DNA from: Candidatus Auribacterota bacterium
GTDB taxonomy: Bacteria; Auribacterota; JAFGBW01
Length of the DNA stretch: 6,870 nt
Assembly (NCBI GenBank): GCA_016932965.1
Contig: JAFGBW010000275.1
Coordinates: 1 to 6,870, forward strand
Direction: 5' to 3'
Shown here: positions 549 through 3,995 of the stretch, in pieces
Layout: every line of letters starts with the position of its first letter
Position numbering within the stretch: the first letter of the stretch is position 1
Notes under the pieces: generated by a model
Seen by the model: the letters and a program-made list of their open reading frames with translations, nothing else
Told to the model about the DNA's origin: nothing
Database searches by the model: none
Translations under genes and position numbers: made by a program

Positions 549-1409
549 ATGAAATTTTTTTCTCCGGCCAAAATCAATTTATTTTTATGGGTTAAGGAAA
601 AACGCAAAGACGGCTACCATGAGCTGGAAACTGTCATGCAAACCATTGACTTTGGGGATGAGATTGAATGGAACATTCATGACAGGGGGCAGATATCGAT
701 AGAGTGCAACTGCCCGGAAGTTCCCCTGGATTCCTCAAACCTGGTCTGGAAAGCCATCGAGTTCTTTTTCCAGGAAGCCAGGATCAGCAATCCGGGGATT
801 TCCGTCCGGATTAATAAAAAAATTCCTGTGGGAGCCGGTTTGGGCGGCGGCAGTTCCAATGCCATACGGATGCTGGTTGCTTTGAACCGCCATTTCAACT
901 GTCCTCTTTCTGAGACGCAAATGGGTTTGATTGCAAATGCGTTAGGGTCAGACACTCATTTTTTTCTGAAAGGAGGTACCTGGCTGTATCGGGGAAGAGG
1001 TGAGATTCCTGTCCAGGAGATTGATGCAGTACCCCTTGTTTATCTGCTCATATTTCCCGGGATAAATAGTTCCACCAAAATGGTCTACTCCCGTTTTATT
1101 TTCGACTTGACAAAACCCGGACCAGACCCTAGCTTACTTTTGCTTAAGTTGAAGCAAGGTTCTTTGAAAGAAATAAAAAATGCGATAGTGAATAATTTAA
1201 CTGACGCATTCGTGGGCTGCTATCATGATGCCGAGGAATTATTCATCAAAATAAGCGGGGAAGAAAAAAAACAAGTTTTCGTATCCGGTTCAGGCTCCGC
1301 GTTATTTTGCCTCTTTGATAAGGAACAAGAAGCCATCAAGATGAAAGGGGAATTGGAAAAAAGACTCAATAAAACAATTGTTATTGCCAGGACTTATCAA
1401 TGTAGTTAA
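549..1409 (+). CDS. ispE: 4-diphosphocytidyl-2-C-methyl-D-erythritol kinase (IspE)
   Basis: IspE phosphorylates the 2-hydroxyl of CDP-methylerythritol with ATP in the cytoplasmic MEP (non-mevalonate) pathway to IPP and DMAPP. The 286 residues match the family's full length. It is a GHMP kinase with all expected motifs. PAKINLFLWV at 6-15 contains the substrate-contacting Lys8, and GYHELETVMQ follows at 22-31. The ATP-binding glycine loop PVGAGLGGGSSN is at 93-104. LGSDTHFF at 132-139 carries the catalytic Asp135. The C-terminal SGSGS is at 246-250. His136 stands where most homologues have Val-Pro (GADVPFF), a tolerated position. An in-frame TAG at 525-527 leaves ATG 549 as the only plausible start, although no good Shine-Dalgarno precedes it. 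spoVG follows after 34 nt on the same strand, probably in one transcript. ispE-spoVG proximity is also known from Bacillus-type genomes. Confidence 0.97.
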   Translation: MKFFSPAKINLFLWVKEKRKDGYHELETVMQTIDFGDEIEWNIHDRGQISIECNCPEVPLDSSNLVWKAIEFFFQEARISNPGISVRINKKIPVGAGLGGGSSNAIRMLVALNRHFNCPLSETQMGLIANALGSDTHFFLKGGTWLYRGRGEIPVQEIDAVPLVYLLIFPGINSSTKMVYSRFIFDLTKPGPDPSLLLLKLKQGSLKEIKNAIVNNLTDAFVGCYHDAEELFIKISGEEKKQVFVSGSGSALFCLFDKEQEAIKMKGELEKRLNKTIVIARTYQCS

Positions 1410-1443
1410 ACATCATGAAACCTGCCAGGAAAGCGAGGGGGAA

Positions 1444-1965
1444 ATGGAAATCACTGAAGTCAGAATCAGTCGTCGCGCTCAAGGTGAGGCAAAATTAAAG
1501 GGATACGCCGCAGTTACATTTGATGATTCGTTTGTAGTACGGGATTTGAAAATCATCGAAGGAAAAAACGGCCTCTTTGTGGCTATGCCAAGTCAAAAAA
1601 TGCAGGAAGCATGTCCCCGTTGCAGAAAGAAAAATGCCATACGGAGTCATTTTTGCAACGAATGCGGTCACAGGCTCCAGCATAAGGAACGAAGAGACCG
1701 GAAAGAAATTCATCGCGATATAGCCCATCCGGTGACGTCGGACATGAGGGCGTATCTTCAAAAAGTCATCATCGATGCTTATCATGCCAATCAAGGTTCG
1801 AATCATGAAGAAGAAAACGGCGAAGCATTCAGGGAGGATGAAGAGATCGAACACGAAGAAAAACACCGTGAGCAGGATTACTTGAGCTCTACTCCCTTGA
1901 AAGTCGAAGAGAGAATGACCAAGGAAGATGATTCAAAACAGACCCTTTTGGACACGATAGAATAG
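1444..1965 (+). CDS. spoVG: SpoVG family regulator with an internal zinc-ribbon insertion
   Basis: SpoVG proteins are small nucleic-acid-binding regulators that bind DNA in Staphylococcus and Borrelia and RNA in Listeria. This one has 173 residues, against about 85-100 in ordinary members. MEITEVRISR opens the fold. LKGYAAVTFDDSFVVRDL (18-35) and KIIEGKNGLFVAMPSQK (36-52) are the family core. The core resumes at RDIAHPVTSDMRAYLQ (91-106). Between them, at about 53-90, sits an extra CPRC (57-60) ... CNEC (71-74) zinc-ribbon-like module with a basic stretch (KERRDRKE) after it. A Glu-rich, charged tail runs from about 119 to the end. The ATG at 1444 is chosen because GAGG (1435-1438) is well placed and the SpoVG fold begins there. 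A TTG at 1378 in the same frame would add 22 residues overlapping ispE. The insert is visible. Its metal binding, and any role in nucleic-acid contact, are inferred. Confidence 0.92.
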   Translation: MEITEVRISRRAQGEAKLKGYAAVTFDDSFVVRDLKIIEGKNGLFVAMPSQKMQEACPRCRKKNAIRSHFCNECGHRLQHKERRDRKEIHRDIAHPVTSDMRAYLQKVIIDAYHANQGSNHEEENGEAFREDEEIEHEEKHREQDYLSSTPLKVEERMTKEDDSKQTLLDTIE

Positions 1966-1971
1966 CTATCT

Positions 1972-2043
1972 TGGGGTGTCGTCAAGCGGTAAGACAGAGG
2001 ATTTTGGATCCTTTATTCCCAGGTTCGAATCCTGGCACCCCAG
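1972..2043 (+). tRNA. tRNA-Gln (anticodon UUG)
   Basis: The 72-nt sequence folds as a full cloverleaf. The 7-bp acceptor stem pairs TGGGGTG (1972-1978) with CACCCCA (2036-2042), and the discriminator is G2043. The D arm is GTC/GAC with a GG-containing loop (1981-1995). The anticodon stem is GAGGA/TCCTT, with loop TTTTGGA (2002-2008) and anticodon TTG at 2004-2006. A 5-nt variable region precedes the T arm CCAGG-TTCGAAT-CCTGG (2019-2035). A U1-A72 pair and G73 are typical glutamine identity elements. CCA is not encoded, so it must be added after transcription. The gene starts 6 nt after the spoVG stop, so it is probably cut out of a shared transcript. Confidence 0.97.
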
Positions 2044-2068
2044 TTCTAAGCATTCAATGTTAAAATAA

Positions 2069-2100
2069 TTCTAAGTGAAAAGTTTTTAGAAGGTATTTTT
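2069..2100 (+). terminator. Weak terminator-like hairpin after tRNA-Gln
   Basis: TTCTAA (2069-2074) and TTAGAA (2086-2091) can pair around an 11-nt loop, followed by GGTATTTTT. The stem is short and AT-rich, so strength is doubtful, but position and the trailing T-run fit the end of the ispE-spoVG-tRNA transcript. The rest of the gap to 2219 is AT-rich, with no further gene or convincing promoter seen. Confidence 0.3.
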
Positions 2101-2219
2101 AATCGCAATAAGATATTAGTTTTGAGTTGGAATGATGATTTTTCCTTGTTCAGAAAGAATAATTTAATGCTTTTTAACAAGAAAATATGTTTTTCAATTC
2201 TTATTCTTTTTTATAACTC

Positions 2220-2891
2220 ATGACTCAACATTCACAACTTTATTCAAAAACCATGTCCTCTCAAACTCATTCATTAACTGAGTCTAAATTCCGTCAGAAA
2301 TTTTTAACCCTTTTTTTAATCGTGGGTATTCTGAGCGGCTTTTTTTGTTTTTTCAGGATGATTCATTTGCTGGATCAGTATTCCTCTCCGATCAGAATCG
2401 ATTATGCCCCTCCTGAAAAAAAGGATTCAGTAGAGGATCCGGATGCCTGTGAGAAATATCCGGAAGTGGGTTCTCAAGGACGAAATCAGAAACTATCCAA
2501 AGAATTGATCGATGTGAATACGGCGGATGAAGAAGCATTGATGAAGCTTCCCGGAATCGGCCCGGTTCTTGCAAAGGAGATCATCAAAGACAGGGAAAAT
2601 CTAGGGCCTTTTATACATGAAAAAGACCTGCTGCGCGTACCAGGCATAGGAGAAAAAAAATTCCAGAAAATTCTGCCTGGCTTGAAACCTTTTTCAACCA
2701 GCCCTTCGTTGGATTCCGTTGTCATGCCTATAACCATCCAGCCGGAAGCGAATCTGTCCGGATATTGTCCGCGTTGTCATCAGAAGCTCCCGGTTAGTCA
2801 TTCTAGATATTCCCATGTCGGCCCGTATTGTCCGGCATGCTTACATTATATTCAGGAAACAGAAACCGGGAAACAGGATGCCCATGGGTAA
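2220..2891 (+). CDS. ComEA-like helix-hairpin-helix protein, membrane-anchored, with C-terminal zinc ribbon
   Basis: ComEA proteins bind incoming double-stranded DNA at the outer face of the inner membrane during natural transformation, through a tandem helix-hairpin-helix domain. The order here is a polar N-terminus, one hydrophobic segment at about 28-48, a Pro/charged linker, then the domain at about 97-156. That domain begins LIDVNTADEEALMKLPGIG, and its two hairpins carry PGIG at 111-114 and 141-144. These features are diagnostic of the family. After it come about 25 linker residues and an extra module, CPRC (183-186) ... CPAC (204-207), not usual in ComEA. With a conventional N-in orientation, both the DNA-binding domain and the ribbon would be periplasmic. 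No Shine-Dalgarno precedes the ATG at 2220; an in-frame ATG at 2253 is an alternative and also lacks one. The 3' end overlaps the next gene. Involvement in competence is inferred from family only, because no other com gene is in view. Confidence 0.85.
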   Translation: MTQHSQLYSKTMSSQTHSLTESKFRQKFLTLFLIVGILSGFFCFFRMIHLLDQYSSPIRIDYAPPEKKDSVEDPDACEKYPEVGSQGRNQKLSKELIDVNTADEEALMKLPGIGPVLAKEIIKDRENLGPFIHEKDLLRVPGIGEKKFQKILPGLKPFSTSPSLDSVVMPITIQPEANLSGYCPRCHQKLPVSHSRYSHVGPYCPACLHYIQETETGKQDAHG

Positions 2892-3147
2892 AGTAGCTTT
2901 GGCGATCTGGCTTTTTCTCATTGCTTATAAAATATATGACATGAAGAGACCTCAGGTTGAGGAAAAGGAAGAAATTTCATCCCGACAGGAGATGGTTCAG
3001 CAGACACCTGCAGAACAGACGCCCGTTTTTGATCCGAACTGGGAGGGGCATAAATACAGCAAAAACATCATTCCTAAAATGCAGGGGCATTTTTCAAAAG
3101 CCATGACTACCACGGAAAAAGCCAGGCAAAAACGGGATGCCAGATGA
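2878..3147 (+). CDS. Small single-pass membrane protein of unknown function
   Basis: I do not recognise this family. From the ATG at 2878 it is 89 residues. A short hydrophobic segment, VALAIWLFLIAYKIY, lies at about 6-20, followed by a basic-acidic linker (KRPQVEEKEE), a Gln/Pro-rich stretch and a basic C-terminus ending KARQKRDAR. The start codon overlaps the end of the ComEA-like gene by 14 nt, so translational coupling is likely. A second ATG at 2884 has AGGA (2875-2878) at better spacing and may be the true start. A further in-frame ATG at 2815 lies inside the neighbour's zinc-ribbon coding region and is less likely. The overlap suggests joint expression with the ComEA-like protein and perhaps a shared membrane location. 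Nothing in the sequence shows an enzyme. Confidence 0.7.
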   Translation: MPMGKVALAIWLFLIAYKIYDMKRPQVEEKEEISSRQEMVQQTPAEQTPVFDPNWEGHKYSKNIIPKMQGHFSKAMTTTEKARQKRDAR

Positions 3148-3167
3148 ATTCGCCGGCTGCAACCCCC

Positions 3168-3197
3168 TTTTTTCAGCATGGGGGGATGCTGAAAAAA
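3168..3197. repeat. 12-bp perfect inverted repeat with a six-G loop
   Basis: TTTTTTCAGCAT (3168-3179) and ATGCTGAAAAAA (3186-3197) are perfect complements around GGGGGG. The repeat begins 20 nt after the stop of the small membrane-protein gene. The T-run precedes the stem and the A-run follows it, the reverse of a classic terminator, so termination in either direction is not obvious. CCCCC at 3163-3167 could instead pair with the G loop, giving a competing structure. It may act as a 3' stabilising or attenuating hairpin. Confidence 0.6.
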
Positions 3198-3216
3198 AGC
3201 TTTGATGCACCCTTTT

Positions 3217-3246
3217 GAGTGAGCGGAGATTTCTCGGAGCTCGCTT
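3217..3246 (+). repeat. Imperfect hairpin downstream of the ComEA-like operon
   Basis: AGTGAGC (3218-3224) pairs with GCTCGCT (3239-3245), allowing one G-U pair, and an inner GAGA/TCTC stem (3226-3229 with 3232-3235) continues it. TTT follows, then GGGGG. It could be a weak transcription end or a structured RNA piece. The 3148-3403 gap otherwise holds only the neighbouring inverted repeat and the lipoprotein promoter. Confidence 0.35.
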
Positions 3247-3304
3247 TGGGGGCAGCCTCAATATAATCGATTTTAACGTTTGCTGTTACGGAAATTGTTT
3301 AACC

Positions 3305-3333
3305 TAGACAAAATGGAGAAATCCATTTATAAT
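3305..3333 (+). promoter_or_regulatory. Strong sigma-70-type promoter for the lipoprotein gene
   Basis: TAGACA (3305-3310), exactly 17 bp, and a perfect TATAAT (3328-3333) give one mismatch to consensus over twelve bases. Transcription would start near 3340, leaving an AT-rich leader of about 64 nt before the ATG at 3404. This is the best promoter match in the window and suggests high basal expression. Confidence 0.7.
3311..3328. promoter_or_regulatory. 18-bp palindrome filling the promoter spacer (possible operator)
   Basis: AAATGGA (3311-3317), GAAA, and TCCATTT (3322-3328) form a perfect 7-bp inverted repeat. It occupies the whole spacer between the -35 and -10 boxes and shares the first T of the -10. 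A repressor bound here would block RNA polymerase. The palindrome is seen directly; that it is an operator is inferred. Confidence 0.45.
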
Positions 3334-3390
3334 TATTTTTTTGAATATTTAAAAAAATTTAACGTCTTAAAAGATATAAATGAAATTAAA

Positions 3391-3396
3391 AGGAGA
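3391..3396 (+). promoter_or_regulatory. Strong ribosome binding site of the lipoprotein gene
   Basis: AGGAGA sits 7 nt before the ATG at 3404. It is the clearest Shine-Dalgarno on the plus strand here and fixes the start of the lipoprotein gene. Confidence 0.8.
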
Positions 3397-3403
3397 TTGA
3401 ATC

Positions 3404-3751
3404 ATGAAAAAATGCATAGGGATTTTGCTGGCAGCCTTGTTTTTCTCCGGATGTTCAGAAACAGGACAATACGCTGGTGGAGGAGCTGTGGCAGGGGGAG
3501 CCTTGGGTGCTATCATAGGACACAATAGTGGAAGGAGAGGCGGAGAAGGTGCTGTAATCGGAGCCGCTGTCGGGGCGCTGGCTGGAACAGCAATAGGTCA
3601 GCAAAAACAGATTGACAAAATGCAGCAGGGCGGGACTGGACAAATGCAAATTGCTGTTTGTCCGTCCTGTAATTCCAGGGTGGATGTCTCAGGTTTTCCC
3701 CCTCATTCCACGGTTGCTTGTCCTAATTGTAAAACAGAGTTTACCTACTAA
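3404..3751 (+). CDS. Glycine-zipper lipoprotein with C-terminal zinc ribbon
   Basis: A 115-residue exported lipoprotein. Residues 1-16 form a signal peptide (MKK, hydrophobic core) ending in the lipobox FSG, with Cys17 as the lipidated residue. Serine at +2 would allow outer-membrane sorting under the E. coli rule. Residues 24-65 are a Gly/Ala-rich double hairpin (GGGAVAGGALGAIIG, then GAVIGAAVGALAGTAIG) split by a basic turn, HNSGRRGG. This is the glycine-zipper pattern of SlyB/Rcs-type 17-kDa-antigen lipoproteins, which insert in or brace the outer membrane. After a Gln-rich linker comes CPSC (86-89) ... CPNC (106-109), an MJ0042-like ribbon that is unexpected outside the cytoplasm. Whether the four cysteines bind zinc or form disulfides cannot be told. 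A strong promoter and ribosome site precede it, so it is probably abundant. Its precise role is unknown. Confidence 0.88.
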   Translation: MKKCIGILLAALFFSGCSETGQYAGGGAVAGGALGAIIGHNSGRRGGEGAVIGAAVGALAGTAIGQQKQIDKMQQGGTGQMQIAVCPSCNSRVDVSGFPPHSTVACPNCKTEFTY

Positions 3752-3827: not shown

Positions 3828-3995
3828 GTGAAAATGTGGATCATTCTTAGTATTAGTCTCATCATTGTTGCGTTGATTGCCTATTTCTTCTGGAGAAAAG
3901 CACAAGACGCTATGATCGAAGCGGAGATTGAAAAAATCAAAATACCCGACGATACCTTTGAAGAGTCTCCGCCCTTCAAGAAGAACGGCGAATGA
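3828..3995 (+). CDS. Small 55-residue single-pass membrane protein
   Basis: From GTG 3828 the reading frame gives a 55-residue protein. MWIILSISLIIVALIAYFFW (residues 3-22) is a textbook transmembrane segment, followed by Arg-Lys, an acidic amphipathic stretch (EAEIEKIKI) and a polar Pro/Lys tail ending FKKNGE. ATG 3834, two codons later, is the alternative start. AGAGAG at 3816-3821 is a weak Shine-Dalgarno, better spaced for the GTG. No homologue is recognised. The positive residues after the helix predict N-out/C-in orientation. It follows the lipoprotein gene by 76 nt and an inverted repeat, so it may share that transcript. Its last 20 nt overlap the end of rodA on the other strand. Hydrophobic-then-charged composition and a clean stop support a real gene, but coding status rests on that alone. 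Confidence 0.6.
   Translation: MKMWIILSISLIIVALIAYFFWRKAQDAMIEAEIEKIKIPDDTFEESPPFKKNGE

Follow-up and report, generated by a model that had tools for sequence, protein, structure and literature searches.

Zinc-ribbon-like modules of probably separate origin on three neighbouring proteins of an Auribacterota bacterium, and the range of the SpoVG insert beyond Planctomycetes

Within 2.3 kb of a short contig from a Candidatus Auribacterota bacterium, three neighbouring genes encode proteins of unrelated families, namely SpoVG, a ComEA-like protein and a glycine-zipper lipoprotein, each of which carries an added zinc-ribbon-like module. The stretch analyzed here, referred to as the window, is the complete 6,870-bp contig (JAFGBW010000275.1; G000:C66) of a draft genome of 3.14 Mb, and the Auribacterota have been placed within the Planctomycetes-Verrucomicrobia-Chlamydiae (PVC) superphylum (PMC12057145). 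An earlier sequence-only reading had noted the motifs CPRC-x10-CNEC in SpoVG, CPRC-x17-CPAC in the ComEA-like protein and CPSC-x16-CPNC in the lipoprotein, and had proposed either a lineage with unusually widespread ribbon fusions or the local duplication of one module. The motifs and their spacings were found exactly as described, with two CxxC knuckles in all three proteins, and the resemblance of the last two after the first knuckle (HQKLPVS in the ComEA-like protein, NSRVDVS in the lipoprotein) was also confirmed. Our analysis indicated that the three ribbons were very probably acquired independently by unrelated proteins and inherited vertically, that their adjacency is an accident of this one genome, and that no module is common to them; nothing pointed to a function in common. 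Because the ribbons are inherited in their own families and were found side by side only here, none was copied from another, and a single system made up of the three is unlikely. What is new is that the SpoVG insert has a wider range and is of ribbon type, that Auribacterota have two ribbon fusions, one of which loses its cysteines step by step, and that a phage appears to carry a ribboned SpoVG; the SpoVG insert itself was already known (PMC3444138).

The spoVG gene (1444-1965, on the plus strand, as are the other features given below unless stated otherwise) encodes a protein of 173 amino acids with a ribbon insert and an acidic C-terminal tail. The ribbon spans residues 57-74 (1612-1665) and is inserted in the loop that leads from the VAMPS strand to DIAHP. 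The SpoVG domain passes the Pfam cut-off with 100.6 versus 29.6 bits (PF04026), and its core resembles the SpoVG proteins of Bacillus subtilis (2ia9) and Staphylococcus epidermidis (2i9x, 2i9z) at an E-value of 1e-24, with which the predicted fold agrees: in a Foldseek search with the AlphaFold model all ten matches at E<0.001 were SpoVG chains (TMt 0.68-0.79). Confidence in the model, measured by the predicted local distance difference test (pLDDT), is about 80 over residues 61-80, and few strands are predicted in the insert. The standard annotation model, the NCBIfam SpoVG equivalog, scores the window protein below its threshold (99.2 versus 108 bits) as the insert splits the match while the core is otherwise intact, and automatic annotation may therefore miss such proteins. 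Pfam sees the ribbons weakly and below cut-off, as DZR in SpoVG (E=1.3e-4) and as Zn_ribbon_LysW in the lipoprotein (E=0.012).

The SpoVG insert follows one fixed geometry, CxxC-x10-CxxCG placed seven residues past VAMP, in 14 of the 14 SpoVG proteins found in Auribacterota. When loop size was compared over 42 SpoVG proteins from inside and outside the phylum, 19 had a loop of 8 residues with no cysteine pairs and 23 had a loop of 39-49 residues with the ribbon, with none between these sizes. A DNA pattern scan of genome_contigs for ribboned SpoVG, covering 84,980 species, returned at least 119 stretches, and at least 117 after two matches (L103 and L145) that were not SpoVG had been dropped. 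Among the matches listed, ribboned SpoVG was found on contigs of at least 91 Planctomycetota, at least 15 Omnitrophota and at least 4 Auribacterota; the remainder comprised at least one Desantisbacteria, at least one PVC bacterium, at least three unnamed and at least two probably misnamed contigs. The last two, named as Actinomycetes (L081) and Bacteroidales (L091), look in our judgement like mislabelled or misbinned metagenome-assembled genomes (MAGs) of the PVC group. Since the scan pattern demands one geometry, these counts describe where the ribbon occurs and cannot tell which phyla are without it. The view that SpoVG is ordinarily without the module thus does not hold for Planctomycetota, Omnitrophota and Auribacterota, in which ribboned forms are common, an outcome that the earlier reading had itself named as grounds for refutation and that applies here to SpoVG.

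An insert in SpoVG was published in 2012 by Gupta et al. as a signature of 32-36 amino acids for Planctomycetes that is absent elsewhere, with no mention of zinc or cysteine and without being called a ribbon (PMC3444138). The published site matches the one described here, a large insert between the VAMPS and DIAHP blocks where the Planctomycetes sequences carry the ribbon, and the length fits as well, given loops here of 39-49 residues against 8 without the insert. Our account differs in that the insert is recognized as a zinc-ribbon-type module and has a wider range: contrary to the 2012 claim, it is not specific to Planctomycetes, as it is also present in Omnitrophota, Auribacterota, a Desantisbacteria MAG and a PVC bacterium. 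A published molecular marker is corrected in this way, and the insert may therefore bear on the relations of Planctomycetota, Omnitrophota and Auribacterota. In a tree of 82 SpoVG proteins built with the insert excluded, a single change of state suffices on the best tree, at a support of 41/56, which is compatible with one origin or with several. The SpoVG ribbon is very probably an old insertion into the loop that joins the final strand of the core to the helix, and it is found in Auribacterota, Planctomycetota and Omnitrophota as well as in a small number of further lineages.

The SpoVG of Listeria binds RNA, and DNA weakly (PMC4959528), and the ribbon may modify such binding. Most likely it would provide an additional folded surface through which this cytoplasmic regulator broadens or positions its contacts with nucleic acid or a partner. 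A bolder proposal, that SpoVG in Auribacterota, Omnitrophota and Planctomycetota is metal- or redox-responsive, with a ribbon that senses zinc or oxidation and gates or redirects nucleic-acid binding, unlike the Gram-positive form, seems to us unlikely.

Ribboned SpoVG was also seen on contigs classed as viral, at 7236-7769 of a 37.9-kb IMG/VR contig (L187) and on L185, L186 and L188-L192. A gene for the large subunit of a terminase (PHROG 38, E 9e-52) lies on L187 as well, and therefore at least one phage appears to carry a ribboned SpoVG.

The glycine-zipper lipoprotein (3404-3751; 115 amino acids) has a lipobox, FSGC at residues 14-17, read from its sequence, a zipper that scores 36 bits against a cut-off of 25 (PF13488, Gly-zipper_Omp) and a C-terminal ribbon with the motif CPSC-x16-CPNC at 3659-3730. 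The lipobox and the zipper above the Pfam cut-off liken it to glycine-zipper outer-membrane lipoproteins of the YiaD type without the OmpA domain; unlike in YiaD-type lipoproteins, the C-terminus is formed by the ribbon in place of an OmpA-like domain. Full-length matches to the zipper with its C-terminal module were present in ten Auribacterota genomes, and a related module with a weaker score was found in eight genomes of family f3, in four of which the motifs were read as CPHC or CPFC followed by CPYC. In total about 18 of the 44 genomes of the phylum have the fusion, whereas 340 genomes from outside the phylum yielded no match spanning the two domains. A single-sequence AlphaFold prediction of the window module gave four short strands with pLDDT about 90. 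The nearest solved fold is the LysW zinc-ribbon domain (PF21344; 5k2m, 3wwn), with a root-mean-square deviation of 1.1-1.3 over 31-33 columns at a probability of 0.99. LysW is a cytoplasmic amino-acid carrier protein, and the E-values of these fold matches are just 0.3-0.6; the likeness is one of fold and not of family membership.

Orthologues of the lipoprotein lose their module cysteines in steps. Most keep four, while two remain in G005 and G012 (CPQGH...CPIDN) and none in G020, the Theseobacter exili form (SPSGN...DPLSG), as traced in loci L058 (G005), L059 (G020) and L060 (G012); the pattern VDVTGY..G..VR.P....F is kept despite this loss. In the two-cysteine forms, His and Asp could serve as substitute ligands. 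That the rest of the module is conserved where cysteines are lost suggests a greater importance of the fold than of the metal, and this series offers a natural case for studying the role of small domains without metal. The lipoprotein would most likely embed its glycine-zipper hairpin in a membrane and expose the ribbon as a rigid little domain for docking.

The ComEA-like gene (2220-2891) encodes a protein of 223 amino acids with an N-terminal transmembrane-like helix (hydrophobic segment at residues 27-45), a helix-hairpin-helix (HHH) pair that scores 71 bits with Pfam HHH_3, and the C-terminal ribbon CPRC-x17-CPAC (2766-2840). The membrane helix and HHH pair resemble those of ComEA and ComE operon protein 1 (8dss, 8dfk; E 4e-24 with the A3 profile). 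The ribbon at the C-terminus and the lack of an adjoining comEC within the window set it apart from ComEA (TIGR01259), and we call the protein ComEA-like only, because its scores fall under the ComEA family cut-offs (TIGR01259, 49.2 versus 152.35; TIGR00426, 42.7 versus 53.1). The orthologue in genome G001 has the same domain order and the same ribbon, including a flanking YCPxCLxYxxET motif; the gene in G002 runs off its contig, and the absence of a ribbon there therefore says nothing. With an HHH-plus-ribbon profile, matches that reach the ribbon were obtained in 12 of the 44 genomes of the phylum (125-235 bits), while the best matches among the 340 genomes outside scored 99 bits and below and none spanned both domains. 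Many HHH ribbons of the phylum are of a shorter type (KCWRCG...CPxCGxKW), and therefore the HHH-plus-ribbon class as a whole need not share one origin. The protein is most likely anchored in the inner membrane, with a periplasmic part that would bind DNA through the HHH pair and a ribbon that may add a contact to DNA or to a partner. A literature search found ribbon fusions neither of ComEA nor of glycine-zipper lipoproteins, and two periplasmic ribbon fusions typical of Auribacterota are now recorded.

A further protein of this kind, with 409 amino acids, is encoded on the minus strand at 546-1773 of L366 (G035:C243) and has an N-terminal ribbon and a C-terminal HHH pair; its middle part resembles a metallo-beta-lactamase-like domain by eye. 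Relatives of it may be present in G016, G023 and G027, where matches fall at corresponding positions.

Four observations weigh against separate origins and accidental adjacency. Among the genomes searched, both fusions are confined to the phylum, so that a shared use of periplasmic ribbons peculiar to this lineage is conceivable. A comparison of the ComEA and lipoprotein ribbon sets by hhalign gave a probability of 95%. The flanks of the fetched SpoVG loci are often just 1.5 kb long, and looser linkage could escape notice. Finally, two of the six CPxC/CPxC pairs of this genome lie in the window, within 900 bp of each other (P about 0.008 under random placement, uncorrected for the windows scanned).

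From the first of these follows the alternative that survives best, although we consider it improbable: a phylum-wide special use in which extracytoplasmic ribbons are a common docking element of HHH proteins and zipper lipoproteins, with a role perhaps in taking up DNA or assembling the envelope. The recurrence of both fusions inside the phylum speaks for it, as does the occurrence of several ribbon-HHH proteins in some genomes, including the 409-residue protein. Yet the ribbons of the two proteins form distinct families, one lineage has lost every cysteine of the lipoprotein ribbon, and the genes have no conserved linkage. This genome is also ordinary in its density of CPxC pairs, with 6 in 3.14 Mb or 1.9 per Mb, which falls at the 55th percentile of 196 genomes from other phyla. 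The phylum has a slightly higher median, 2.2 per Mb versus 1.8 in the others (p=0.002), a comparison in which related genomes are not independent. The idea of a lineage with widespread ribbon fusions therefore held for the recurrence of these two fusions and not for the number of ribbons in the genome.

A local duplication, in which the ribbon was copied between the lipoprotein and ComEA-like genes in either direction and possibly to SpoVG too, is very unlikely. The two modules, 0.8 kb apart, do share CPxC-x2-(K/R)-x2-VS and a similar gap to the second knuckle, besides the high hhalign probability. However, SpoVG and ComEA ribbons, which have a different spacing and history, also reach 85% by hhalign (SpoVG and lipoprotein ribbons 7.6%), and the 95% is thus read as generic zinc-ribbon likeness. 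When the CPxC anchors were removed, the lipoprotein spacer had its best matches in its orthologues, with scores of 43, 41 and 39; the neighbouring ComEA ribbon scored -1, a background level, and ranked 18th of 72 ribbons. The motif likeness behind the suggested kinship of these two ribbons is real, then, while the pairwise comparison does not bear it out. Against this genome, the lipoprotein ribbon profile and the ComEA ribbon profile each gave one match, itself, and neither found the other. Each ribbon is moreover shared with orthologues elsewhere in the phylum, and in G001 the orthologous ribbon is already on each protein although the three genes lie on separate contigs (C44, C57 and C74). 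A recent duplication is refuted; a very old common ancestor among the ribbons in general is possible.

The weakest alternative, a functional unit of regulator, DNA receptor and envelope lipoprotein in one operon, has the common strand and the 2.3-kb span in its favour but is scarcely credible in view of the wide gaps, the tRNA gene and the promoter-like site between the genes, the lack of conserved synteny in relatives and the different predicted compartments (the ComEA-like protein has a transmembrane-like helix and the lipoprotein has a lipobox, and SpoVG has neither), and a functional link among the three is accordingly unsupported. Between spoVG and the ComEA-like gene lie about 250 bp that include the tRNA gene, and 256 bp with the promoter-like site separate the lipoprotein gene from the small open reading frame (ORF) at 2884-3147. 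The ComEA-like and lipoprotein genes were not found in the flanks of any fetched SpoVG locus except in this genome. The only conserved linkage, recurring throughout the loci, was that of IspE with SpoVG, which adjoin in most of the SpoVG loci examined across phyla.

Separate acquisition with accidental adjacency also has to allow for three such proteins meeting by chance. From a 175-kb sample of the genome, in which 5-7 of 183 ORFs encoded two-CxxC proteins, a genome should by expectation hold about 0.3-0.8 runs of five genes with three of them. Clustering of this kind is a little out of the ordinary without being compelling, and it is unremarkable for a window picked as unusual-looking.

The gene order in the window is ispE, spoVG, tRNA-Gln, the ComEA-like gene, a small ORF, the lipoprotein gene and a small membrane ORF, followed on the opposite strand by rodA and a penicillin-binding protein gene, the latter two named by reading the ORF list. 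The ispE gene (549-1409), directly upstream of spoVG, encodes a GHMP kinase (Pfam GHMP_kinases_N, 2.6e-15), and tRNA-Gln (TTG) was located by ARAGORN at 1971-2044. These two genes and spoVG lie close together in several Auribacterota families, with varying orientation of the tRNA (window 549-2044; L012-L014 and L018-L020). The small ORF at 2884-3147 encodes 87 amino acids with a hydrophobic N-terminus and overlaps the ComEA-like gene by 8 bp; it had no family in Pfam or NCBIfam and no match beyond this genome in the searched loci. Between it and the lipoprotein gene, an inverted repeat with flanking T and A runs (3164-3201, no strand assigned) looked like a terminator by eye; the terminator scan, which missed it, gave this candidate no support, and neither did its folding, which was no better than that of shuffled sequences (z -0.98). 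The promoter-like site upstream of the lipoprotein gene (3305-3333) is a consensus match alone, at 11 of 12 positions. A second small ORF at 3828-3995 likewise has a hydrophobic N-terminus, and it too had no family and, among the searched loci, no match beyond this genome.

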